This document shows positions 4,576 through 49,148 of a stretch of 49,148 nucleotides of DNA, piece by piece. Within the stretch, counting starts at the first letter, position 1, and the number at the start of each line of letters is the position of its first letter. The stretch comes from a virus. Made by a program: the position numbers and the translations under genes. The stretch is taken from the IMG/VR virus record IMGVR_UViG_3300028800_000139, positions 1 through 49,148 of that record; one strand, given 5' to 3'. Under the pieces are notes generated by a model that saw only the letters and a program-made list of their open reading frames with translations, searched no databases and was not told the DNA's origin.

Positions 4576-5052
4576 ATGGCAGAGATCGCATTCGTCGTCA
4601 ACGTCCCGAAGTACAGCACCTCGGGGCTCGGCAACTTCCTCAAGGCCGGGCGTGAACTCGTCCGCCAGGTCGCAAAGGATCTGCCGCTGGAGAGCCCCGG
4701 CAGCGTCACGTTGCTGGAGGTGCTCGTCAGCGACAAGCACCTCGTGCCCGATGTGTACGCCAACTGGAAGACGCCGCCCGCCGTGGGCAACCCGACCGTC
4801 GCTCCGGTCGGCAAGGTGACGACCACCAACCTCACCGTCGTTGGCGGAGCGGCTGGCAACCTCACGGTTGCTGGCATCCTCACCACCGACACGCTCAAGT
4901 CCGTGGTCAGCATTGACGACACCACGCACGCAGCGACCGACCTCATGACGGGTGCGAACCCCATGACGATCACGGCCACCAACACGATCAACAACACGGG
5001 TGGCACCGCCTCAACCGGCGGGCACGTCGTGGTGACGTGGGACCGCACGTAG
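4576..5052 (+). CDS. Putative virion protein with Ig-like beta domain, 158 aa
   Basis: The N-terminal 70 residues are a mixed alpha/beta region. Residues about 85-155 form a Thr/Val/Asn-rich beta domain containing SVVSIDDTTHAATD and NTINNTGGTASTGGHVVV. The same domain recurs in the adaptor protein at 19556-20419 (SVVAVNDTTHASTD, NTINNSGGTSSVGSHLVV), with similarity visible even in the DNA. Phage Ig-like domains usually decorate capsids or tails and bind surface carbohydrate, so a surface-exposed virion role is inferred. Confidence 0.7.
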   Translation: MAEIAFVVNVPKYSTSGLGNFLKAGRELVRQVAKDLPLESPGSVTLLEVLVSDKHLVPDVYANWKTPPAVGNPTVAPVGKVTTTNLTVVGGAAGNLTVAGILTTDTLKSVVSIDDTTHAATDLMTGANPMTITATNTINNTGGTASTGGHVVVTWDRT

Positions 5053-14975: not shown

Positions 14976-15016
14976 GTTCCGGTAACACAATCCTCCGATC
15001 AAACACGAGGTTCATG

Positions 15017-16117
15017 ATGTTCATTCGCACTCCAGTGTTCTTCGACGGTGCCGACGAGACTCCCGGCGGTGCCGGTGTCGAGCAGCCCGTTGGTGGCTCC
15101 GACGACCTCGGCCACGCCTCACCCGACGAGCAGTCGTTCGGCTCGGCCAAGGACTTCGACGCCGCACGCCGTGCGCTCCTGCGTGAGCCGCCGGTCGTGT
15201 TGCACGACGACTCGCCTGCGCCGCCGACGCCGCCCGCCGGAACCGACGACGCATCGCTGCTCGCAGAGTTGGCGGCAACGCCTGCGCCTGCCGCACCTGC
15301 GCCGGGCGCTCCCGCACCTGAGCAGTTCGTGGTCGGTCGCACGAGCGACGGCCGTGAGATCGTGCTCACGCCGGAGCAGGCGAAGACCAACTGGGAAGTG
15401 GCCGAGGCACTGCGCACCGAGCAGGGCATCAAGGGCATGGTGGGTCAGGGACTCGTCGCTCTCGGTTACTCGCCGGAGGAGATCCAAGCATTCGTGGCCG
15501 CACACAACGGCCAAACACCCGTGGGGGCTCCGGCAACGCAGCCTGGTGCAACGCCGGAAGCCCCTGCGCCAGTCGATCCGTTCGCTGACCTGGAAGACGG
15601 CGAGGTGGTGTCGGGCGCTGACCTCAAGCGTGCGTACGCACTGCTCCGTGACCAGGCGGCGCAAGCGGCAGCGGCTGCAACGCAGGCTGCAACGCAGCCG
15701 TTGGAAGCGACCATCGCCCAGCAGCAAGCGGCGCTGGAGGCTCGGGAGCAGGCGGTCATCAACCAAGTCGCCACGAGCACGTACCACGAGTTGCTCGGGC
15801 AGCCGCCGACCGAGCCCGAGGCCAACCGCCGGTACATGGCGCAAGCGGCCAGGGTGCAGCAGTTGGCCGACAGCGTGGTGGTGCAGGGCAGCCGTGACCC
15901 GGGCGAGATCCGCCGGGCGCTCATCGCCGGGCACGCCATGTTCGTGGACGAGATGGAGACGGCCTTCCGGGGCTACGCCGCCGGGAAGAAGCAGGCTGCG
16001 GCCGACCTCCCGACCAACATCGGCGGCGGTTCCGCCCCTGGCGGGGAGCCCGTGAAGGAGCCGGTGGACCTCAAGGACGCACGCCGCCAAGCGAAGGCAG
16101 CGGGCTTCTTCGGGTAG
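15017..16117 (+). CDS. Putative capsid scaffold protein, 366 aa
   Basis: Located between portal and major capsid protein. Composition is Ala/Pro/Glu/Gln-rich: an acidic N-terminal half with Pro-rich linkers, a long helical coiled-coil region (about residues 205-260) and a basic C-terminus (DARRQAKAAGFFG), the layout of scaffolds whose basic tail contacts the coat. It should direct procapsid assembly and leave the head. Two adjacent ATGs exist; 15017 has better spacing (6 nt) to CGAGG than 15014. The transcript ends at the strong hairpin at 16147. Confidence 0.75.
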   Translation: MFIRTPVFFDGADETPGGAGVEQPVGGSDDLGHASPDEQSFGSAKDFDAARRALLREPPVVLHDDSPAPPTPPAGTDDASLLAELAATPAPAAPAPGAPAPEQFVVGRTSDGREIVLTPEQAKTNWEVAEALRTEQGIKGMVGQGLVALGYSPEEIQAFVAAHNGQTPVGAPATQPGATPEAPAPVDPFADLEDGEVVSGADLKRAYALLRDQAAQAAAAATQAATQPLEATIAQQQAALEAREQAVINQVATSTYHELLGQPPTEPEANRRYMAQAARVQQLADSVVVQGSRDPGEIRRALIAGHAMFVDEMETAFRGYAAGKKQAAADLPTNIGGGSAPGGEPVKEPVDLKDARRQAKAAGFFG

Positions 16118-16182: not shown

Positions 16183-17439
16183 ATGGCCCAATCCCTTGCG
16201 AACTACGACGCAGCCCTCAAGAACATCTACGCCCCCGGGCTGCGCAACTCGATCAACAACTCCAACCCGATCCTCACCGAAGTCGTGCATGACACGGAGA
16301 ACGTGAGCGGTCGCAAGTGCATCTGGGCGGTTCACTCCGGCCGGTCCGCTTCGACCGGTGCTCGGGCCGAGTTCGGCACGCTGCCGACGGCGGACCGTCA
16401 GCGGTACATCGCCCCCGAGGACGACCTCGCTTACCTGTACCACACCATCAAGGTGTCGGGTCAGGCCAAGCACCTCACCCAGAACAACGCTGGTGCGTTC
16501 GCCAAGGCGCTCGACCAGGAGATGACGGGTGCGGAGAAGGACATCAAGAACGACCTGGCCCGCCAGATGTTCAACGCAGCGGTCACGATCGACGCTGCGC
16601 TGGTTGTCGGTGCGTACGCCCAGTGCTTCACCATCACCGACTCGACGCACATCGTCATCGAGTCGCTGGAGGCGCTCGACGCCGACGCCGCTGCCAACTC
16701 GGCGGACTCGGTGTTCCGGCCGTTCTTCGTCGGGCTCGTGTGCGACACGGTGACACCCGCCACGGGTGCTATCTCGGCCACGTTCACGATCACCGGCATC
16801 ACCAAGTCGACCGGCACGATCCAGACCACGACCAACACGGGTGCGACCGAGGACGACTACATCTTCCGCTCGGGCAACTACGGCGTGGCGGGCGGCGAGG
16901 GCAACGAGATCAACGGCCTTCGCTACCTCACCGGCACGCAGGACTACGCCGGGGTCACGGCGTCGACCAACCCGATCTGGAACGGCAACGCCGTCGGCTC
17001 GACCTCGACCGGCATCAGCGAGAACTTGCTGGAGTCGGCCATCGAGATCGTGCAGACCGACGGCGACGGCTCAACCCCGTCGTTCGCTCTGGCCGAGCAC
17101 TCGCAGGGTCGCAAGCTGGCGGTCATCGCCCAGCAAGCCAAGCGGTTCGCTCCTCCGGCGGTCACGCTGGAAGCGGGCTGGAAGGGCATCGAGGTTGCCG
17201 GGCTCAGCCTGGTCTTCGACCGCTTCTGCCCGACGCAGGACATCTTCGTCCTGACGCCGAGCGAGTTGGCGTGGTTCGTGGGCCTCGACTGGACCTGGGA
17301 CGACGACGACGGCAAGGTGCTCTACAAGGCACTCGACGGGTCGGACGCCGTGGAGGCACGCTTCAAGGCGTACGTCAACCTCCAGACGTACACCCGCAAC
17401 GCTCACACTGCGGTGAAGGCGGCGGTTCCGTCCTTCTAG
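16183..17439 (+). CDS. Major capsid protein
   Basis: A 418-residue protein placed after portal and scaffold and transcribed as a single-gene unit between two terminators, as expected for the most abundant virion protein. The N-terminal arm contains YDAALKNIYAPGLRNSINNS (residues 8-27). A Thr-rich insert around residues 195-235 could be an I-domain-like surface loop. The C-terminal part (FDRFCPTQDIFVLTPSELAW, about residues 344-363) fits the A-domain end of an HK97-type fold. No cleavage site is evident. A miniature relative is encoded at 39033-39569. Confidence 0.85.
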   Translation: MAQSLANYDAALKNIYAPGLRNSINNSNPILTEVVHDTENVSGRKCIWAVHSGRSASTGARAEFGTLPTADRQRYIAPEDDLAYLYHTIKVSGQAKHLTQNNAGAFAKALDQEMTGAEKDIKNDLARQMFNAAVTIDAALVVGAYAQCFTITDSTHIVIESLEALDADAAANSADSVFRPFFVGLVCDTVTPATGAISATFTITGITKSTGTIQTTTNTGATEDDYIFRSGNYGVAGGEGNEINGLRYLTGTQDYAGVTASTNPIWNGNAVGSTSTGISENLLESAIEIVQTDGDGSTPSFALAEHSQGRKLAVIAQQAKRFAPPAVTLEAGWKGIEVAGLSLVFDRFCPTQDIFVLTPSELAWFVGLDWTWDDDDGKVLYKALDGSDAVEARFKAYVNLQTYTRNAHTAVKAAVPSF

Positions 17440-19555: not shown

Positions 19556-20419
19556 GTGACCACCGCATCCACGCTCATCGCCCAGGCCGCAGTGCGGTAC
19601 AAGGACCCGTCCAACGCCGTCATCTCGGCGGGGCAGTGGCTCCAGTACCTCAACCAGTGCTACTCCGACGTGAACGAAGCGAGCCCGCTGTGGCCGTGGC
19701 TGGAGTCGGCGGAGGAGACGGTGACCGTACTCGCCGGGCAGCGCAGCGGTGCGCTCCCGGCCAACGTGTTCCAGGTCAACTGGGCGTACGACACCACCGA
19801 CGACTACCGGCTGGTCGACCAGCAGGGCCGTGGCGACCAGTGGCACCAGGACCACCTACGCAGCGAGACGGGGCAGCCCGTCACCTATCGGCTGCGTGCG
19901 AACGTGCTGGAGTTGTTCCCTGCGCCACTCGTGAACACCACGGTGGTGTGCGAGTGCGTGGAGTACCCGGCCGACCTCGGCACTGTGACGACCACGGTGT
20001 ACGGCATCGCAGGCGCAGCGGCCGGTGACCACACCGTGACCGGCATCGCCGTCGGTGACCAACTCATCTCGGTCGTGGCGGTCAACGACACCACGCACGC
20101 ATCGACTGACGTGACGAGCGAGTACACGGTGACCGTGACGAATACGATCAACAACTCGGGCGGCACCTCGTCGGTGGGCTCGCACCTCGTCGTGACGGCG
20201 CAGCGCCCGAGCACCACGGGCTCGCCCGTGTACCCCTCGATCTACCACAGCGACCTGCTTGACGGGATGCTCGCCCTGGCGTACTTGGACGAGGGCAACG
20301 ACAAGATGTACGGGCTGCTCTGGCCCAAGTTTGAGGCGTCGATCACGCAGATGCGTGCCGACATGCTGCTGTACCGGTCGGAGACGAACCCTCCGATCCG
20401 TGACACGTTCTGGTCGTAG
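19556..20419 (+). CDS. Head-tail adaptor / tail tube A-like protein with inserted Ig-like domain, 287 aa
   Basis: Residues 1-135 (LIAQAAVRYKD...WLQYLNQCYSDVNEASPLWPWLES) and the last 60 residues (YHSDLLDGMLALAYLDEGNDKMY...) resemble the adaptor proteins below the portal in short-tailed phages (P22 gp4 or T7 gp11 role). Between them, residues about 140-215 are a Thr/Val-rich domain nearly duplicating the one in the 158-aa protein at 4576-5052. The insertion projects a beta domain from the connector. The GTG start is supported by a leaderless-type hexamer. Confidence 0.7.
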   Translation: MTTASTLIAQAAVRYKDPSNAVISAGQWLQYLNQCYSDVNEASPLWPWLESAEETVTVLAGQRSGALPANVFQVNWAYDTTDDYRLVDQQGRGDQWHQDHLRSETGQPVTYRLRANVLELFPAPLVNTTVVCECVEYPADLGTVTTTVYGIAGAAAGDHTVTGIAVGDQLISVVAVNDTTHASTDVTSEYTVTVTNTINNSGGTSSVGSHLVVTAQRPSTTGSPVYPSIYHSDLLDGMLALAYLDEGNDKMYGLLWPKFEASITQMRADMLLYRSETNPPIRDTFWS

Positions 20420-32177: not shown

Positions 32178-32572
32178 AGATGTCCGACATCGACCGGGCT
32201 AACGCCATCATCATGCCACTCGTGCAGTTGTACGCCGCCGAGCACATACCGCCAGGCGTGCAGATCCAGGGCATCGAGTCGCACCTCGACATCATCACCC
32301 AGTCGCTCGTGCTCTCGCTGCGTGCGTACTGCATGGGCGACGAGGGGCCACGGGAGGGACAGCGGTACGTGTGGTACCGGTACAAGTTCCCTCGCTACGT
32401 GCCCAAGTGGCTGCGCAACCGGTGGCGCACGAAGCAGGTCATCGACTGCTCGTGGCAGGGCCGGGTCATCTACCCCGAGGCAAGAAATATCCCAGACCTG
32501 GGAATGGGTCGGCGTGTCGTGGAGTTCTATCAGTACGGACCAACACCACCGCCTGAGGAGGCAACGCAATGA
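32174..32572 (+). CDS. Hypothetical protein, 132 aa
   Basis: Not recognised. Starts GTG (32174) overlapping the helicase stop, with an ATG two codons later. The first half is helical (ESHLDIITQSLVLSLRAYC). The second half is basic and aromatic (YVWYRYKFPRYVPKWLRNRW) and suggests nucleic-acid contact. Embedded in the replication operon by overlaps on both sides. Confidence 0.7.
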   Translation: MKMSDIDRANAIIMPLVQLYAAEHIPPGVQIQGIESHLDIITQSLVLSLRAYCMGDEGPREGQRYVWYRYKFPRYVPKWLRNRWRTKQVIDCSWQGRVIYPEARNIPDLGMGRRVVEFYQYGPTPPPEEATQ

Positions 32573-32985
32573 GTGACGAGATTCCGCCGGAGGACAGCGG
32601 CTGGGACGCAGGGGGCATCAAGCGCACCGCTGCGGACATGGCCTTCGTGTTGAAGCTGCTGCAAGATGGGCAGTGGTGGTTGCTGGACGATCTGTCCGTG
32701 GCCGTCGGCTGCCCCACGCAGTCAGTGTCTGCGCATATCCGTGGCCTGCGTGAGCGGCGCAACGGTGCGTGGATCATCAAGCGTGAGCACGTCGGCGGTG
32801 GACTCCACCGCTACCAACTGACCGGGCAGTACCCGGCAGGCGAGGGGCCGGTGACCAAGCGTGGCCGCAAGCAGGCGGGCATCGCACTGGCCGACCAGGC
32901 CATCACGTTCGCAGACGAGTTGCCCGAGGGCACGCCGCTCTACGACTTCCTCGTGGAAGTCGCCTACCACCTGGACCCATCATGA
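32569..32985 (+). CDS. Winged-helix DNA-binding protein, 138 aa
   Basis: Residues about 18-80 read as a winged HTH: a helix (RTAADMAFVLKLLQDGQWWLL), a recognition helix after a turn (GCPTQSVSAHIRGLRERR) and a beta wing (WIIKREHVGGGLHRYQLT). The C-terminus is a second helical part. It could regulate this operon or recruit replication proteins. Coupled by ATGA to both neighbours. Confidence 0.65.
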   Translation: MSDEIPPEDSGWDAGGIKRTAADMAFVLKLLQDGQWWLLDDLSVAVGCPTQSVSAHIRGLRERRNGAWIIKREHVGGGLHRYQLTGQYPAGEGPVTKRGRKQAGIALADQAITFADELPEGTPLYDFLVEVAYHLDPS

Positions 32986-33965
32986 CGCCGAAGAAGCTGA
33001 TCCCCGTCATCAACTACTCCGAGTTCAACACGCTCTCGCAGTGCGAGGAGAAGTGGCGGCGCTCGTACGTCAACCTGGAGGAAGAGACGGGCACCAAAGA
33101 CGCCATGCACCTCGGCACCCTGCTGCACCTCGCACTCGGGCGCTGGCAGAACGGCGAGGGCGCTACTCTGCCGGAGGTATGGACGGACGACATCAACACA
33201 GGCGGCAAGCCGGGGGAGATCAAGACCCTGCGACTAGCCGAGTTCAACCCGGAGATCGTGGAGCGGTGCGAGTGGCTGCTGGAGCGGTACGTGCAGCACT
33301 ACGGCTCGGCCCCGCCTTCCTCTTGGAACGTCATTACTTCGGAAGAGTGGCTCACGAGGGACTTCGGGAGCGGCACCGGTAAGTGGACGCTCGTGGGCCG
33401 CACCGACGGTGCGGTCATGATCGACGGCCAACTCTGGTTGCTTGAGCGCAAGAGCTACGGGAGCAAGGGACGCCTCGACTACGTGGGCGTCGACCCGCAA
33501 CTCGCTGCGTACTGCCTGCTCTACGAGGCGAAGCACGGCGTGCGTCCGTTCGGCATCATCTACGACGGCATCTACACGTACCAGTGGGCGCTCAAGAAGC
33601 CGACGCAGAAGCAGGTCATCGAGGAGTCGCTGTCGCAGGCCGACTCCCCGCTGCACAACCTCACCGGCAAGCAGCGCACCGAGTGGGCACGACAGTACGT
33701 TGAACGCCACCCTGGCGTGCAGACCCGGGAACCGTACGAGTCCTTCGACCGGCGTGAGATCGAGTTGGGCGACGGCCACCTCGCTGCGGCCAAGGCGTAT
33801 CTCGCTGGAGCGATCCGCCGTCGGCGTGTGATCCAGCGCCGACCGTCGGACGCCATCCCCAACGTCGGTCGTGACTGCTCGTGGTGCGGGCACAAGCGTG
33901 CGTGCTGGTCCGACCTCGGCGGCGTCGAGGAAGAGTCGATCTACTACGACGACTCGGAGGACTGA
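32982..33965 (+). CDS. PD-(D/E)XK nuclease with Fe-S cluster, Cas4/AddB-like, 327 aa
   Basis: Nuclease core: H49, D142 (GRTDGAV) and E155-x-K157 (LLERKS) followed by QLAAY, the RecB/Cas4 motif order. C21 near the N-terminus and C299, C302 and C308 (CSWCGHKRAC) near the C-terminus are spaced as the four ligands of a [4Fe-4S] cluster that clamps the domain in Cas4 and AddB. It probably resects DNA ends to give single strands for the Sak4-like annealing or recombination protein two genes downstream. No CRISPR genes are present. Confidence 0.85.
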   Translation: MTPKKLIPVINYSEFNTLSQCEEKWRRSYVNLEEETGTKDAMHLGTLLHLALGRWQNGEGATLPEVWTDDINTGGKPGEIKTLRLAEFNPEIVERCEWLLERYVQHYGSAPPSSWNVITSEEWLTRDFGSGTGKWTLVGRTDGAVMIDGQLWLLERKSYGSKGRLDYVGVDPQLAAYCLLYEAKHGVRPFGIIYDGIYTYQWALKKPTQKQVIEESLSQADSPLHNLTGKQRTEWARQYVERHPGVQTREPYESFDRREIELGDGHLAAAKAYLAGAIRRRRVIQRRPSDAIPNVGRDCSWCGHKRACWSDLGGVEEESIYYDDSED

Positions 33966-34576
33966 TGTCCTGGGACGAGAACGCACTGTGCCGCAACGAC
34001 CCGCACCCCGAGCGGTGGTTCAACTACACCAAGAAGGAGACGACACTCTCATCCGGCAAGGCCGTCGGTGGCATCCTCGACCTGCAAGACATCTGCGCAC
34101 TGTGCCCGGTACGCCAGGGGTGCGGGGAAGCTGCGCTCGCTGAGGAGTCCAAGGGCGACAGCGTGACGGGGCGCTACGGCTTCCGTGCGTACATGACGCC
34201 GGAGCAGCGGGCTGCGATCGTGCGCCTCGGTGGACTGCGTGGGCGTGACCCGATGAAGGTCGTGATGGGGCTCGGCAAGAAGACCAAGGTGCGGGGCGAG
34301 GTGGTCACCGAGACGGTGCCGCCGATCCCCGAGCAGGGCATCGAGTGGAACCGTGCGCACACTGCGCTCGCTCGCAAGCTGACTCGACGCCTGCGTGACA
34401 CCGTGCGCCCCGGCCGGAATATCCCCGGCGACAAGACGTTGTGCAAGTTCCTCGGCTGCTCGCCTGAGCGACTGCACGTTGTGCTCGACTCGCTCTTGCA
34501 GTCAGGTACATTGCTGGAGCACGAACCAGGCAAGTACGTGCTGACAACCAACCAACGGTCCAAGGAGATCCTATGA
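33965..34576 (+). CDS. WhiB-like Fe-S regulator fused to a C-terminal HTH-like domain, 203 aa
   Basis: C9, C44, C47 and C53 (C-x34-C-x2-C-x5-C) are the four [4Fe-4S] ligands of WhiB proteins. GRYGFRAYMTPEQRAAI (about 69-85) takes the place of the usual Gly/Trp turn. Typical WhiB proteins are 80-120 residues; here residues about 115-203 add a basic helical part and a winged-HTH-like end (DKTLCKFLGCSPERLHVVLDSLLQSGTLL). WhiB proteins bind the primary sigma factor, so this may redirect host RNA polymerase. The start ATG shares its A with the previous stop. Confidence 0.85.
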   Translation: MSWDENALCRNDPHPERWFNYTKKETTLSSGKAVGGILDLQDICALCPVRQGCGEAALAEESKGDSVTGRYGFRAYMTPEQRAAIVRLGGLRGRDPMKVVMGLGKKTKVRGEVVTETVPPIPEQGIEWNRAHTALARKLTRRLRDTVRPGRNIPGDKTLCKFLGCSPERLHVVLDSLLQSGTLLEHEPGKYVLTTNQRSKEIL

Positions 34577-35415: not shown

Positions 35416-35966
35416 TGCCCCGTAAGACGAAGGCTCAACTCGCTGCGGAAGCGGAGGCGGAAGCACTTGCCGCAGCCGAAGCGGGTGACTCCCCCGAGGA
35501 GTTGGACGCACTGCTCCAAGCTGGCTACGAAGCCGGTGAGGACGAAGACAACTGGGACTTGGACGAGGACGACCTCGCAGCCCTCGACGCCGCCGAGGAA
35601 GCGGGTGACTACGACGCCTTCAAGGCGGACGTGACGATCCTCTGCACCAAGGTGGAGAAGTTGTCGGGCAAGGACTCCGGCGACCCGTACCTCAAGCTGA
35701 CGTGGGTCGTGCAGGACGGCCCGCACGAGAAGGCCCACATCTGGGACCTCATCATGCTCCGTGGCAAGGGGCTCGGCTTCGCCAAGAAGAAGCTGAACCA
35801 ACTCGGCCTCTCGGTGCAGGGTCTGAGCCGCAAGTCCTTGGAGGGACTGCTCGTCACGGCGAAGACCAAGGTCCAGAAGGGCAAGGACGACTACGACGAC
35901 AAGACGGTGATCCAGAAGTACACCGGCATCGTCGGAGCGGTCACGGCAGAAGACCTGCCGGAATAG
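35415..35966 (+). CDS. DUF669-like single-strand DNA-binding partner, 183 aa
   Basis: Residues 1-65 are a highly acidic Ala/Glu/Asp-rich tract. The rest resembles the small beta-barrel proteins (DUF669 type) that accompany Sak4 recombinases: KADVTILCTKVEKLSGKDSG, YLKLTWVVQDGP, then VQGLSRKSLEGLLVTAKTKV. Here the acidic tail is N-terminal rather than C-terminal as in ordinary SSB. The start is coupled by TAATG to the ATPase. Family assignment is moderate. Confidence 0.6.
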   Translation: MPRKTKAQLAAEAEAEALAAAEAGDSPEELDALLQAGYEAGEDEDNWDLDEDDLAALDAAEEAGDYDAFKADVTILCTKVEKLSGKDSGDPYLKLTWVVQDGPHEKAHIWDLIMLRGKGLGFAKKKLNQLGLSVQGLSRKSLEGLLVTAKTKVQKGKDDYDDKTVIQKYTGIVGAVTAEDLPE

Positions 35967-35985
35967 CGGCCCCGCCGCCACGCAC

Positions 35986-36018
35986 GGCCGGGTGGGTACT
36001 CCTCCTCCCCACCCGGCC
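35986..36018 (+). terminator. Perfect 11-bp GC-rich hairpin
   Basis: GGCCGGGTGGG (35986-35996) pairs with CCCACCCGGCC (36008-36018) around an 11-nt C/T-rich loop. There is no T-tract. It stands at the only sizeable gap in the replication operon and could attenuate transcription before the prim-pol and polymerase genes. Confidence 0.55.
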
Positions 36019-36021
36019 CTG

Positions 36022-36070
36022 CGCAGTGTGCAGTCGAGTGTTCCCTTCCGTCCACTCGCTGCGCACTGCG
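36022..36070 (+). promoter_or_regulatory. Long imperfect stem-loop ending at the prim-pol ribosome site
   Basis: CGCAGTGTGCAGTCGAGTG (36022-36040) is nearly complementary to CACTCGCTGCGCACTGCG (36053-36070). The stem ends at the first G of GGAGG (36070-36074), so folding could influence ribosome access to the prim-pol start. Confidence 0.55.
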
Positions 36071-36082
36071 GAGGTGACGTGC

Positions 36083-36823
36083 ATGACGATCTTCGTAGCA
36101 CTCAACGGACCCAACGACGACGGCAAGAAGCCGAAGGCACCCGCCAACAACGGGTGGCAGTCGCCTGGGCACAAGGGCATCAACCCCAAGACGTTCAAGG
36201 GCTGGTACGGACTGCGCTGTGACGGGCTCATCGTCATCGACTGCGACAGCGAAGAGGCGTTCAACCACTGGATGGACATTGCCCACCCGGAGGCCAGAGA
36301 CGACGCCGACTTCGCAGACACCTGGATACGCAAGACGCCTCGTGGCTACCACGTCATATACCGGTGGCATGACCCGCTCGGTGAGTTGGACCACCTCAAG
36401 GGACCGCACGCTGGTGTGCTGCCCGGTGTCGACATCAGGCAGGGTGCGTCGTCGCAGATCGTGTACGCAGCGCCGGGGCTCCGGCCTGGGTATGAAACCC
36501 TCACGGGGTCACCCTCAACGGTGCAGGATTTTCACCCGCCGTGGGCCAAGGACTTCGTGGTCGGGAAACGTGCCATCGAGGGCGACACCTGGGACGAGAT
36601 GCCCGAGGGGGTCGGAAATACGACCCTCGCCGCCATCGCCGGGACGATGCGCAAGCAGGGAATGGGGCCGACGGCAATGGTGCGGTGCCTCTCCGCCATC
36701 AACAAGATCACGATGACGCTCGACCCCATGCCCCGGGACCAGATCATCGCCATCGCCCGCTCGGTCAGCCGCTACGAGGTGGACCCCATGATTGACGAGA
36801 TCACCGTCTATGGCTTCGACTGA
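36083..36823 (+). CDS. Bifunctional primase/polymerase (prim-pol), 246 aa
   Basis: Prim-pol fold with D53 and D55 in VIDCDS, H90 in PRGYHVIYRW and D117 in GVDIRQGASSQIVYAAPG, the metal- and nucleotide-binding set of the family. Residues about 185-240 form a helical C-terminal domain. It makes primers and perhaps short extensions for the family A polymerase that follows. There is no helicase domain in the protein; the RepA-like helicase at 539 is the likely partner. GGAGG lies 8 nt before the ATG. Overlaps the polymerase start by 14 nt. Confidence 0.85.
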   Translation: MTIFVALNGPNDDGKKPKAPANNGWQSPGHKGINPKTFKGWYGLRCDGLIVIDCDSEEAFNHWMDIAHPEARDDADFADTWIRKTPRGYHVIYRWHDPLGELDHLKGPHAGVLPGVDIRQGASSQIVYAAPGLRPGYETLTGSPSTVQDFHPPWAKDFVVGKRAIEGDTWDEMPEGVGNTTLAAIAGTMRKQGMGPTAMVRCLSAINKITMTLDPMPRDQIIAIARSVSRYEVDPMIDEITVYGFD

Positions 36824-38834
36824 CCCCCTCCTCACCGACCCTGGCGAGATCGTGGCCCTGGCCGAGTACATCGAGAGCGTCGGCCCCGACGGCTACGTGG
36901 CCTGGGACACCGAGTCCGGGGCCACCGAGGAGATGCGGGCCATCTTCCCCAAGGCCGAGCTACACCCCTACGTGAGCGCCTACTGCACCGGTCTGAGCCT
37001 CTGCGTGGTCGAGCGGCCCGGGATGGACCCGGCCGACCTGGAGGGCGTCTACGTGCCCGTGGGGCACCCGGGGAGCAACGCCCCCACGAGGGCCGTGAGG
37101 CGGCTCCTGAGGGCGCTGAACCGCACCGATGCCACCCAGGTCACCCACCACTGCCTCCACGACTGGCCGATCCTGGCGGGCCTGGGGCTGGGCTACCGCC
37201 CCCCGGACGGCCGGAGGGGTCGCCGCCGACCCCACATCGACACCCAGGTGGTCGCCTGGCACCAGGACGAGAACCGTGTGAAGGGGCTCAAGCCGCTCGG
37301 GGAGATGTACCTGGACGAAGACGCCGCCGCCGAGAAGGAGGCGCTGGACGCCATCAGGAAGGCACCCTACGGGCTCGCTGACGCCCGGCGGGTGGTGGTG
37401 GCTGCCTACCCCGAGCTAGGGGCGCTGCTCAAGAACGGGAAGCGGTCGATTGCCCGCCCTGGCGATGAGGGCGAGCGGCTGGCCCGGCAACTCGCCAGGG
37501 GTCGTAGCTGGGGCCAGATCACCGCCCGGGAGATGGCCGAGTACGCAGCCCGGGACGCCACGCTGACCGCCGAGTTGGCGGAGTTCCTGCTGCAAGCGCA
37601 CCCCGTCGCCACGGTGCTCAGCAAGGGGCAGAAGCGGGAGCACGACTACCAGGGTGTGTTGTACCGGCTCACCGAGCGAGGTGTGTCGGTGAAGCTGGAC
37701 GAGTTGGACTCCGCCGCTGCGGAGTACGCCCGGCGTGCCGAGGTGGTGCGCATCGGGTTGGAGGAGGAGTTCGGCATCGAGAACCCCGCCTCGCCCGACC
37801 AGTGCAAGGCGTTGCTGTATGGCAAGCTGGGGCTGCCCATAATGGGCCGCTCAAAGAAGACCGGCTCCCCCTCAGCCGACAAGAACGCCCTGGAGATGTT
37901 GCAGGGCCACCCTGTCGCTGCTCGTGTGTTGGAGTATCGGAAGTGGAAGCACGCAGAGGGTCAAGCGACAACGTACGGGAACCACGCTCGGTACTCGACC
38001 GACGGTCGGATACACGGGCACTTCTCATCCACGCAGACGGTCACTGGGCGCTTGTCTGCGTCTGGACCGAACGTGATGAACGTGCCGAGGGACGACTCAC
38101 TCCCCGAGATCAGGCGTGCCTTCTATACGGCGAAGCCCGGGTTCAAGAGATACGGCTTCGACATCAACAGCGCCGAGTTGTGGGTCACCGCTTCCGTCAC
38201 GCAAGACCCGCTGCTGACTGAGACGTTGATGTCCGGTGCCAACCTGCACGCCACCACGATGGTGCAGGTGTTCGGCGGGGAGATGGACAAGACCCGCCGG
38301 GAGTACACGCTCAGCAAGAACGTGAACTTCGGCATCGAGTACGGAGCCGGGCTCGACCAGATCACCGTGTTCGCTGCGAAGGCGGGCTACTCCCCGAGGG
38401 AGGCCCGGCGTGTCGCCAAGAAGATGCGTGACGGCCACAAAGAGGCGTACGCCGTGCAGCACCGTATGGCTAAGTTCCTCGCCCAGCACGCTGAGAAGGT
38501 TGGCAAGATTCCGCTCTACGGGAACAACGACCGGTATCGGCACTTCTGGTCGCCGGGCAAGCGCATCCACGCCTACACGGCGCTGAACGCACTCGTGCAG
38601 GGTGGCGTTGCGGAGTTCGTGAAGGACACGATGCTGGCGCTCGACAACACCTGGGCACGCAACTACCTCGTGCTCCAAGTGCATGACGAGTTGGCGTTCG
38701 ACGCACCCGACGAACCGGGAATGGAAGCACGCCTCCACAAGTTGTTGACGAAGATCGCAGCAGACCTCAATCCGTTCCGGTACCCACTCGTGTGGAGTGC
38801 CAAGACCTGGGAGCAAGACCTTGACGCTGACTAA
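36810..38834 (+). CDS. Family A DNA polymerase with 3'-5' exonuclease, 674 aa
   Basis: Exonuclease domain: D33-x-E35 (AWDTESG), a middle motif near HHCLHDWP and a YAARDA third motif. Polymerase domain: motif A GFDINSAEL (D451), motif B ...YTLSKNVNFGIEYGAG (K503, F507, Y511) and motif C HDE (625-627). The residue four before the motif B lysine, usually Arg, is Tyr499; Arg496 and Arg497 lie nearby. It is the main replicative polymerase. A TTG 18 nt upstream is in frame, but the ATG at 36810 is a likelier start. Confidence 0.92.
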   Translation: MASTDPLLTDPGEIVALAEYIESVGPDGYVAWDTESGATEEMRAIFPKAELHPYVSAYCTGLSLCVVERPGMDPADLEGVYVPVGHPGSNAPTRAVRRLLRALNRTDATQVTHHCLHDWPILAGLGLGYRPPDGRRGRRRPHIDTQVVAWHQDENRVKGLKPLGEMYLDEDAAAEKEALDAIRKAPYGLADARRVVVAAYPELGALLKNGKRSIARPGDEGERLARQLARGRSWGQITAREMAEYAARDATLTAELAEFLLQAHPVATVLSKGQKREHDYQGVLYRLTERGVSVKLDELDSAAAEYARRAEVVRIGLEEEFGIENPASPDQCKALLYGKLGLPIMGRSKKTGSPSADKNALEMLQGHPVAARVLEYRKWKHAEGQATTYGNHARYSTDGRIHGHFSSTQTVTGRLSASGPNVMNVPRDDSLPEIRRAFYTAKPGFKRYGFDINSAELWVTASVTQDPLLTETLMSGANLHATTMVQVFGGEMDKTRREYTLSKNVNFGIEYGAGLDQITVFAAKAGYSPREARRVAKKMRDGHKEAYAVQHRMAKFLAQHAEKVGKIPLYGNNDRYRHFWSPGKRIHAYTALNALVQGGVAEFVKDTMLALDNTWARNYLVLQVHDELAFDAPDEPGMEARLHKLLTKIAADLNPFRYPLVWSAKTWEQDLDAD

Positions 38835-39045
38835 GTTGATCGAGAACCTGACCGAGTGTGGCACCACACTCACCGAGTGCGGGAGCCATCCCGTGCTCGA
38901 CCTCGGGCAGAAGCAGATGATTGCCGAAGCCGAGGTGCGGGTGGCGCAGACCGTGCGGGAGTTGACGATGTTCGACGCCGAGCACGAGTACGTGGGCAAC
39001 AGCGACGACATCGCAGAGGCGGAGGAGAACGGATGGACGCACTGA
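38821..39045 (+). CDS. Hypothetical protein, 74 aa
   Basis: Not recognised. The TTG at 38821 has GGGAG seven bases upstream and overlaps the polymerase end by 14 nt; GTG 38797 and TTG 38836 are alternatives. Sequence is acidic and helical after a Cys-containing N-terminus (TECGTTLTECGSH). It ends overlapping the next gene by 13 nt. Confidence 0.55.
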   Translation: MTLTKLIENLTECGTTLTECGSHPVLDLGQKQMIAEAEVRVAQTVRELTMFDAEHEYVGNSDDIAEAEENGWTH

Positions 39046-39569
39046 CGCCCGACGAAGCCCTCGACGCTGCGGAGCGTTTCGCAGAGCAGGCAAAGATCCC
39101 GTTCACCGACTGGCAGAAGCGTGTGCTTGCTGCCGTGCTCGCAGGCGACCGGGAAGAGGTCGAGTACGCAGCGTGGTACGAGCCGCCGGTCCAGACGTGC
39201 ATCAACCTGACCGATGTCAACGGGCGGGGCATGTCGATGTCGGCGTTCGACCAGGCGCTGCGTGACGTGTACGCACCGGGCCTGCGTGATGCCATCAACA
39301 ACAGCCGCTCGTTCTTCGACATGATCGTGAAGGCCCCCGAGCGCAAGCGTGTGTGGTGGCAGCCGTGGACATGGCGTCGTGTGCAGCGGTGGTTGCCGAA
39401 GGGCATGCAGTACCACCCCAACTACGAGGGCCGTAAGTGCGTGTGGGACGTGAAGGTCGTGGAGAGCAAGCTGTGCCCGCCGGGTCAGGCGTTCCTGCTC
39501 AACACCGACGCCCTGGAATACGGCGACCCTGGCGACTGGATGGACGACGACTGGAGCGCAGCCGAGTGA
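39033..39569 (+). CDS. Miniature major-capsid-like protein, 178 aa
   Basis: Residues 1-65 are an unrelated helical, acidic region. Residues 72-92 (FDQALRDVYAPGLRDAINNSR) match residues 8-28 of the phage's own capsid protein at 13 of 21 positions, and YEGRKCVWDV (131-140) matches VSGRKCIWAV (41-50). CPPGQAFLLNTDALEYGDPG and the following WMDDDW (148-174) resemble the capsid C-terminal segment CPTQDIFVL...LDWTWDDDD. Between them lies a Trp/Arg-rich stretch. The bulk of the coat fold is missing. GAGGAG precedes the ATG. Role unknown: capsid-arm binder, assembly modulator or degenerate paralogue. Confidence 0.75.
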   Translation: MDALTPDEALDAAERFAEQAKIPFTDWQKRVLAAVLAGDREEVEYAAWYEPPVQTCINLTDVNGRGMSMSAFDQALRDVYAPGLRDAINNSRSFFDMIVKAPERKRVWWQPWTWRRVQRWLPKGMQYHPNYEGRKCVWDVKVVESKLCPPGQAFLLNTDALEYGDPGDWMDDDWSAAE

Positions 39570-39883
39570 CGCCGGTCGAGCAGTGGAAAAAGGACAACCC
39601 TGAGAAGGTTGCCGAGCTACTCGACGCCTGCGGTTGGCGCTGCTGCCTGTGCCGCAAGCGGTTCAGCCGCACCCGGCTGTGGGTACTCGACCACCGGCAC
39701 ATGGACGGGCTCGTGCGTGGCGTGCCGTGCTCGCCGTGCAACGAGAAGCTGGGCGTGCATCACGACGACGCAGGCTGGTTCGCCAGGGCTGCGGAATATC
39801 TCGACTCCCCTCCGGCGTTGGCTGTGATCGGAGAGCACTATGTGCCGGGCTCGCTCGGCGCTGCGAAGAAGGGACGGCCGTGA
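39566..39883 (+). CDS. Recombination endonuclease VII-like HNH nuclease, 105 aa
   Basis: Contains C26-x2-C29, DHRH (42-45), VRGVPCSPCN (50-59) and LG(V), the endonuclease VII pattern of T4 gp49: a structural zinc held by four Cys and a catalytic His/Asn ββα-metal site. It resolves branched DNA before packaging or cuts host DNA. The GTG start overlaps the upstream stop (GTGA), and the next gene starts the same way. Confidence 0.85.
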   Translation: MTPVEQWKKDNPEKVAELLDACGWRCCLCRKRFSRTRLWVLDHRHMDGLVRGVPCSPCNEKLGVHHDDAGWFARAAEYLDSPPALAVIGEHYVPGSLGAAKKGRP

Positions 39884-39975
39884 CCATTCTCGGCATGTCA
39901 GTACCAAGCTGGTTCTACTGCGCAGGCAGCGTCTGCTTCCTCGCCGGAACACTCATCAAGGAGTTTGCCAAGTGA
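39880..39975 (+). CDS. 31-residue single-span membrane microprotein
   Basis: VTILGMSVPSWFYCAGSVCF followed by LAGTLIKEFAK: one hydrophobic helix with a basic end. It starts at GTGA with the endonuclease stop and ends in GTGA with the next gene, so it is inserted seamlessly in the coupled chain. No known family. Confidence 0.55.
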   Translation: MTILGMSVPSWFYCAGSVCFLAGTLIKEFAK

Positions 39976-40496
39976 CCACCATCGAGTTCGACGGCGCAGA
40001 GCCGTACATCAGTGGCCCCATGACGGGCTACACCGACTTCAACTTCCCGATGTTCGACGCCTGCGAGCGTGACCTGCGTCTGCTTGGCTGCGGTGAGGTG
40101 TTCAGCCCGGCCAACCACGACCGCACCGTCATCAAGGAGGTGTGGGGCGACAACGCTCACCCCGAGGACTTCCCCGGCTACGCCGTGGGCGACGTGGGCG
40201 GCTACTTCGACGCCGTGACCAGCAAGGGCAAGTTCTCGCTGGAGACGATGTTCCAGTGGGACCTCGATGTCATCACCAACCACGCCACGCACCTCGTGAT
40301 GCTGCCCGGCTGGCAGGTGTCGACCGGCGCACGCTACGAGCGCACCGCCGCCGAGGCGCTGAGCAAGCCCATCGTGCTCGCCGTCAAGCAGACGGCCGAC
40401 GACGGCGTGCTGGCGCACACCAAGAGCGGGCTGTACTACGTGCTCGACCCCGAGCAGAAGCGCATGACCGAGTTCCTGCGAGGCTTCAATGCCTGA
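39972..40496 (+). CDS. DUF4406 / nucleoside deoxyribosyltransferase-like protein, 174 aa
   Basis: YISGPMTGYTDFNFPMFDACERDLRL opens a Rossmann-like fold seen in DUF4406 and nucleoside 2-deoxyribosyltransferase relatives, where the strand end binds a nucleotide. LVMLPGWQVSTGARYER is the second conserved stretch. It probably acts on modified or free nucleotides and sits next to a dGTP-diphosphohydrolase-like gene and a HAD phosphatase. GTG start coupled by GTGA. Confidence 0.75.
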   Translation: MTTIEFDGAEPYISGPMTGYTDFNFPMFDACERDLRLLGCGEVFSPANHDRTVIKEVWGDNAHPEDFPGYAVGDVGGYFDAVTSKGKFSLETMFQWDLDVITNHATHLVMLPGWQVSTGARYERTAAEALSKPIVLAVKQTADDGVLAHTKSGLYYVLDPEQKRMTEFLRGFNA

Positions 40497-40896
40497 CGGC
40501 CAAGAGACACGCATCGTTGACGCCGTGACCGGCGGGGCCAAGGGCTCCAAGCTGGCTGCGTTCCACCTGATCCCCTGGACGATCGTGCGTGAGGTGGCCG
40601 AGCACTTCGGCCGTGGCGCACGCAAGTACGAGGACCGAAACTGGGAGCGGGGCTACGCCTGGTCGCTCTCATTCGCTGCGCTCCACCGGCACCTGGAGGC
40701 GTTCTGGGCTCGTGACGACTTCGATCACGACCCGTCGCTCTACATCGAGGGGGAGCAGCACAACGCACGGCACATCGTGGCAGTCGTGTGGCACGCTCTC
40801 GTGCTCGCATGGTTCAGCCGGTACAAGGTAGGCACCGACGACCGACCGGCCCCGCCGACGCCCTACGACATCACCAACGTAGGTAAGCCGTCGTGA
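40489..40896 (+). CDS. dATP/dGTP diphosphohydrolase-like protein (N-terminal domain family), 135 aa
   Basis: The order KLAAFHLIPWTIVREVAEHFGRGARKYEDRNW, then ALHRHLEAFWARDDFDHD and EQHNARHIVAVVWHALVLAW, fits the phage dATP/dGTP diphosphohydrolase N-terminal family. That order is a GARKY-x3-NW motif, then a His/Glu helix, then a second helix with conserved His and Ala. These proteins adjust the deoxynucleotide pool. The start overlaps the previous gene by 8 nt. Confidence 0.7.
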   Translation: MPDGQETRIVDAVTGGAKGSKLAAFHLIPWTIVREVAEHFGRGARKYEDRNWERGYAWSLSFAALHRHLEAFWARDDFDHDPSLYIEGEQHNARHIVAVVWHALVLAWFSRYKVGTDDRPAPPTPYDITNVGKPS

Positions 40897-48462: not shown

Positions 48463-49148
48463 ATGGCCCTGCCCTGCCAAGTGTGCGTACACGTAGAGCG
48501 TGCCGAGATCGACCGGCTGCTGAGTCGGCAGCGGGTCAACGTGGCCGAGGTGGCCCGCATGTACGGCCTGCACGACAAGGCTATGCACCGGCATCGTGAC
48601 CGGCACCTAACCCAGTTCCTGCCTGCGTTTCGTGCGAACGCTCGCACGCTGACGCTGGAGCAGCTAGAGGCCGAGGCCGAGCGGCTGTATCAGGTCACGC
48701 TGGACAACCTGGCGGACGCCGAGGCCGGGACACTCACGAAGGTGAAGCACGTCGACCCTGAGACGGGCGAGGTGACGTACCCGTACCGGCGTGAGGTGAG
48801 TCACACGTCGATCGCTCGCATGATTCGGGAGGCAAGAGCGGGGCTCGTGCAGCTTGCTGCCCTGGCAGGCGACAGACCAGACGAGGAAGGTCGACCGACG
48901 AACGCAACCGATCGTGCCCTGTCTGCCGAGATCCGCACGGCGCTCGCTGCTGTTGTCGCCAGGTCCGCCACGAGACAGCAGGGGGAGTTGACCACCACCA
49001 CTGACACACACACAGACCAAGCAAGTGCTGAGTCAATAGACGATGCCGTCGTTGTCAGCGACGACGCTGTGCGCCAGGCCGCTCAACGGACCCGGGGGCT
49101 TGGTGCGGGCAGGCCGGGTGCGCCTACGCCCGCCCCCCAACCCCCCCG
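48463..49148 (+). CDS. Terminase small subunit-like protein, N-terminal part (continues at base 1)
   Basis: CQVCVHVERAEIDRLL followed by VAEVARMYGLHDKAMHRHRDRHL is the CxxC-x-H plus HTH head found on many phage small-terminase-like proteins; it should bind DNA near the packaging site. A helical middle (LEQLEAEAERLYQVTLDNLADAEAG) would oligomerise. The ATG has GAGGTGAAG upstream. The frame continues through the repeat into 1-413; the window's final ten bases differ from the left copy, so residues after about 225 are better read from the left end. It could also be a regulator. Confidence 0.75.
   Translation, partial: MALPCQVCVHVERAEIDRLLSRQRVNVAEVARMYGLHDKAMHRHRDRHLTQFLPAFRANARTLTLEQLEAEAERLYQVTLDNLADAEAGTLTKVKHVDPETGEVTYPYRREVSHTSIARMIREARAGLVQLAALAGDRPDEEGRPTNATDRALSAEIRTALAAVVARSATRQQGELTTTTDTHTDQASAESIDDAVVVSDDAVRQAAQRTRGLGAGRPGAPTPAPQPP
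49013..49138. repeat. Terminal direct repeat, right copy
   Basis: Identical to 1-126. Bases 49139-49148 do not match the left end and lie in a C-rich run, consistent with a read-end error. Confidence 0.95.

Follow-up and report, generated by a model that had tools for sequence, protein, structure and literature searches.

Capsid paralogues are already known, and capsid proteins are targeted by satellite parasites. In phage T4, gp24 is the product of an additional gene that stems from the capsid gene; it keeps the whole fold and is the vertex protein of the virion. Sid of P4 and CpmB of SaPI are satellite proteins that redirect capsid size or assembly and are not capsid fragments, and the Gag-derived mouse gene Fv1 is a host gene that interferes with the incoming capsid. 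We know of no stand-alone capsid arm encoded in a replication operon, and the open-access literature yielded nothing on phage accessory proteins made from capsid fragments. Here, we analyzed a 49,148-nucleotide stretch of viral DNA (IMG/VR record IMGVR_UViG_3300028800_000139; referred to as the window), which encodes a candidate of this kind, P0001. Its locus and the capsid gene comprise the following features:

16183-17439, plus strand: major capsid protein (MCP; PHROG 14242, SU10_MCP), parent family of the P0001 arm
36810-38834, plus strand: DNA polymerase family A (PolA), left border of the slot
38893-39045, plus strand: W042, a small 50-aa ORF between PolA and P0001, without any match
39021-39027, plus strand: ribosome-binding site GGAGGAG, 5 nt 5' of the P0001 ATG, read from the sequence
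39033-39569, plus strand: P0001, a 178-aa chimeric protein with an MCP N-terminal arm (sequence, BLASTP, tblastn, profile and shuffles)
39033-39176, plus strand: P0001 residues 1-48, new N-terminal domain, helical in AF2 models
39234-39335, plus strand: P0001 residues 68-101, MCP N-terminal arm segment (arm-only HMM, BLASTP)
39336-39419, plus strand: P0001 residues ~102-129, Trp/Arg-rich insertion between arm and strand (a 26-aa gap in the MCP alignment)
39423-39455, plus strand: P0001 residues 131-141, GRKCVWDV segment, corresponding to the first E-loop strand of MCP (BLASTP, profile)
39462-39551, plus strand: P0001 C-terminal segment, with a claimed likeness to the MCP C-terminus that is not significant
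39566-39883, plus strand: recombination endonuclease VII (EndoVII), right border of the slot, GTG start

The capsid gene product was assigned to the major head proteins of PHROG 14242 (1.5e-39) and to Pfam SU10_MCP (2.9e-6), and the profile of this family reaches the solved capsid structures 7f38 and 6j3q. P0001 is encoded outside the head block. An earlier note, made from the sequence alone, had assigned the small protein encoded at 39033-39569 to the replication block, at a distance of 23 kb from the MCP gene, and both statements were borne out: P0001 sits between PolA and EndoVII, and its ORF is intact, with an ATG at 39033, the ribosome-binding site, 178 codons and a stop that overlaps the start of the next gene by 4 bp (common GTGA). 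A simple codon-based gene call classified it as coding. Genes for an SNF2 helicase, a PD-(D/E)XK nuclease, WhiB, an AAA ATPase, a primase/polymerase and DNA polymerase A lie on its left side, and those for endonuclease VII, DUF4406 and dGTP diphosphohydrolase on its right side. A simple sigma-70 scan of 35900-40600 found no promoter, a result of little weight given the high GC content of the phage. The WhiB-family gene of the replication block (33965-34576) points to an actinobacterial host; a terminase scan across bacterial genomes found no relative. The window ends (1-136 and 49013-49148) are 97.8% identical over 136 bp, which suggests terminal redundancy or an assembly overlap, and the window is probably close to complete because of this identity.

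The similarity to MCP lies in P0001 residues 68-101, which correspond to the N-terminal arm, and 131-141, which correspond to the first E-loop strand. The arm core is identical at 13 of 21 positions and the GRKCxWxV strand is shared, exactly as had been reported. BLASTP of P0001 against its own MCP gave 44 bits (E 5e-10), and in a tblastn search of its own genome the MCP arm was the sole second match (E 1.9e-6). A family profile was built from 18 MCPs and searched against 8,359 six-frame ORFs in 26 records; P0001 was retrieved at E 9e-9, and still at E 2.1e-8 when its own MCP and the closest relative of that MCP were removed from the profile. The score of 34.9 bits compares with at most 7.1 bits in 3,000 shuffled versions. 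Besides P0001, the only non-MCP ORFs to stand out were P0011 (1.9e-5) and A40 (0.034), both described below, the next having an E value of 3. An arm-only HMM matched P0001 at E 4e-8 among 4,894 ORFs. Arm and strand are 39-52% identical to the family MCPs over 33-46 aa, and the match recurred against the MCP arm in all 10 MCP-bearing contigs of the family (10/10). In favour of chance similarity of the arm, only 34 residues plus 8 are involved; this explanation is already contradicted by the E value among 8,359 ORFs and by shuffled versions none of which came near, and we regard it as practically negligible. The core observation of the earlier note is confirmed.

This similarity covers a small part of the capsid protein. 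Only the arm is significant alone; the GRKC strand taken separately gave E 0.33 and is collinear with MCP, and the MCP spine, middle and A-domain profiles gave no match to P0001. The C-terminal segment, which the earlier note had likened to the CPTQDIFVL end of MCP, gave E 0.21 against the MCP C-terminal profile and 0.08 in BLAST, again collinear. This claim is unproven because MAFFT placed the P0001 C-terminus on the MCP E-loop instead, so that the segment aligns to two MCP regions depending on the method. Most of the coat fold is undetectable, in line with the earlier note, with no recognisable E-loop tip, spine helix, P-domain or A-domain. The term "miniature capsid" was overstated, as only the N-terminal arm and a short strand are demonstrably capsid. 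P0001 as a capsid protein was likewise rejected, since the defining fold elements are undetectable by profile.

The remainder of P0001 is different in kind. The N-terminal helical domain described in the earlier note is moderately supported by AF2, which predicted three helices (6-19, 26-36 and 40-48) with a pLDDT of ~77 for residues 1-40 and 60 for residues 41-50. By itself, this domain had no match in phage records, Pfam or PHROGs, and the whole protein had no Pfam, PHROG or PADLOC (defence-protein model) match. With MCP rows, the pLDDT of P0001 was 47 overall and mostly <50 in the arm region, and the HK97 fold was not predicted; that of A40 was 33, and below 50 throughout. These predictions neither support nor refute a capsid fold. 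The Trp/Arg-rich stretch, which had also been pointed out, is the densest in Trp plus Arg/Lys among 132 proteins, tied with that of A40. W034 of the window also has a Trp/Arg-rich stretch. As a signature of P0001, A40 and P0011 such a stretch is weak, because W034 scores like P0011 without a capsid match.

The arm of P0001 is identical to its own MCP at 15 of 34 positions and to the MCPs of relatives at 12-18 of 34, and 59 of 102 nt are identical to its own MCP gene, including 18 of 34 third codon positions. As the arm is no closer to its own MCP than to those of relatives, it is an old duplicate, and these identities, together with the third positions, show that it was not taken from the resident capsid gene recently. 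Conserved columns of the arm and strand are retained in P0001 more often (12 of 17) than variable ones (10 of 28), which suggests, as far as one sequence can tell, continued selection on the arm. The origin of P0001 as a repurposed fragment of the capsid protein is well supported by these sequence comparisons. Its source would be an old, partial duplication of the 5' end of the MCP gene that kept the arm and the first strand, with a new helical domain in front and the Trp/Arg-rich stretch inserted. The repurposed paralogue proposed in the earlier note is supported, as a paralogue or fragment, by the profile statistics and by a second capsid-like protein in the same slot of a relative.

Retention of conserved columns also bears on neutral or unrelated reuse, in which the arm would be no more than a helix that recombination happened to supply, with the function lying in the new N-terminal or Trp/Arg-rich part. 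The Trp/Arg stretch is prominent, and the same genome has another mobile structural domain, both of which favour such reuse; the preferential retention of conserved arm residues and the recurrence of capsid-like segments in the same PolA-EndoVII slot count against it, and we consider it unlikely. The other domain was seen in a control in which all called proteins of two phages were searched, giving one further domain-sharing case, W010/W026 and relatives. W010 (4576-5052) and the structural protein W026 (19556-20419; PHROG 399) have a common 82-aa segment, 54% identical, which is probably a mobile Ig-like domain. In G001, the segment is missing from the counterpart A025, and related ones are found in A005 and A012.

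The order SNF2, PD-(D/E)XK, WhiB, AAA, primase, PolA and EndoVII is kept across the phage family. PolA and EndoVII lie directly or almost directly next to each other in G004, G005, G006, G007, G014/G015 (near-identical), G020 and L104, whereas the junction between them is occupied in two phages: the window, by P0001 and the 50-aa ORF, and the 49-kb relative G001, by A40. No P0001 orthologue was found in 50,697 phage records or in IMG/VR. Two proteins of relatives are relevant here:

L013:18554-19357: A40, 267 aa, between PolA and EndoVII of G001, weakly similar to the spine helix and C-terminus of MCP
L021:1712-2113: P0011, 133 aa, with an MCP spine-helix segment, between the SNF2 helicase and the PD-(D/E)XK nuclease

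The start of A40 overlaps PolA, and its stop overlaps a GTG able to start EndoVII, as in the window. A40 resembles MCP residues 90-133, the spine-helix region (36% identity, 0 of 1000 shuffles), and scored 12.1 bits against the 18-MCP profile compared with at most 6.0 shuffled, with E 0.0025 for a spine-helix profile. Taken alone, this apparent resemblance is marginal. Beyond the primary match, the strongest argument is that both known slot occupants appear to resemble MCP. P0011 of G007 overlaps both of its neighbours and is present in two near-identical contigs; it scored 22.6 bits against the 18-MCP profile (at most 5.1 shuffled) and E 6.7e-6 against the spine-helix profile, with a possible arm match at E 0.35. 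Among 50,697 phage records, the MCP gene of phage DS1 (E 0.5) was all that P0011 matched at E values up to 1. P0001, A40 and P0011 have no detectable kinship to each other. Another variable slot lies at the SNF2-PD-(D/E)XK junction; it holds two unrelated small genes in the window (32180-32985), P0011 in G007 and a short ORF of ~70 aa in G004.

This distribution weighs on P0001 as a virion component, in which the arm would bring the N-terminal domain into the assembling head, where P0001 would serve as a minor or internal protein. The conserved arm residues retained in P0001 agree with such a role. However, the P0001 gene belongs to the replication operon and not to the head block, near-complete relatives do not have it, and the protein lacks most of the fold needed for a seat in the lattice, so that we consider a virion role quite improbable.

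We tentatively favour, at somewhat less than an even chance, molecular mimicry as the mode of action of this repurposed capsid fragment, the capsid being its partner. In favour of arm mimicry, the arm homology lies far beyond chance, the conserved columns are preferentially kept and capsid-like segments appear to recur in slots of the operon. P0001 would present the capsid arm outside the shell and occupy a site normally contacted by the MCP arm. Its likeliest partner would be the capsid protein or its scaffold (putatively W022, 15014-16117), and the free arm might delay, tune or poison assembly, either in the phage itself, ahead of the late phase, or in relatives or satellites that co-infect the cell. 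Against mimicry, such a protein would be expected to disturb assembly in its own phage as well, unless kept from doing so by timing or affinity.

The second-choice partner would be a host immune sensor that recognises the capsid protein. As an immune decoy, P0001 would bind MCP-sensing host proteins without triggering them, before the real MCP is made. CapRel (PMC9712102) as well as Sau-Thoeris and Lit (PMC11312562) are known to be triggered by MCP. A precedent for a phage-encoded competitor of a structural trigger is the phage protein DSAD1, which vies with the tail tube for the sensor DSR2 (PMC11087589). The patchy occurrence, the replication-operon slot and the change of MCP segment from phage to phage would also fit an anti-defence gene. 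Against this, no report was found of the arm as the sensed segment in CapRel, Sau-Thoeris or Lit, and P0001 had no PADLOC match. By analogy with these systems, a decoy is conceivable, if on the unlikely side.

The pieces kept are the arm in the window phage and the spine helix in G001 and G007. P0001, A40 and P0011 thus appear to retain different MCP segments and are mutually unrelated, which fits one mechanism only loosely. They may belong to a recurrent class of phage accessory proteins made from short pieces of the phage's own MCP, encoded in replication-operon slots and acting as capsid mimics against capsid-sensing immunity or the assembly of competing particles; we regard this class as possible, though less likely than not. 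If it holds, phage-encoded coat pieces in the replication operon would be natural evidence for selection on capsid mimicry, and the MCP pieces kept would mark surfaces that matter. The coat-protein-like gene in the same spot of a relative suggests that phages recycle coat pieces for a putative second job.

Compared with the capsid proteins of PHROG 14242 / SU10_MCP, which have the HK97 fold, P0001 likewise has the N-terminal arm and the GRKxxW strand; unlike them, it has no detectable E-loop tip, spine helix, P-domain or A-domain, and adds an N-terminal domain and a Trp/Arg insertion. Like T4 gp24, P0001 would derive from a capsid gene, but it keeps only the arm. P0001 may work like DSAD1, with no sequence relation claimed, but DSR2 senses the tail tube and not the capsid. 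Sid, CpmB and Fv1 are candidates for a similar way of working, by capsid interference, whereas P0001 is encoded by the phage itself.
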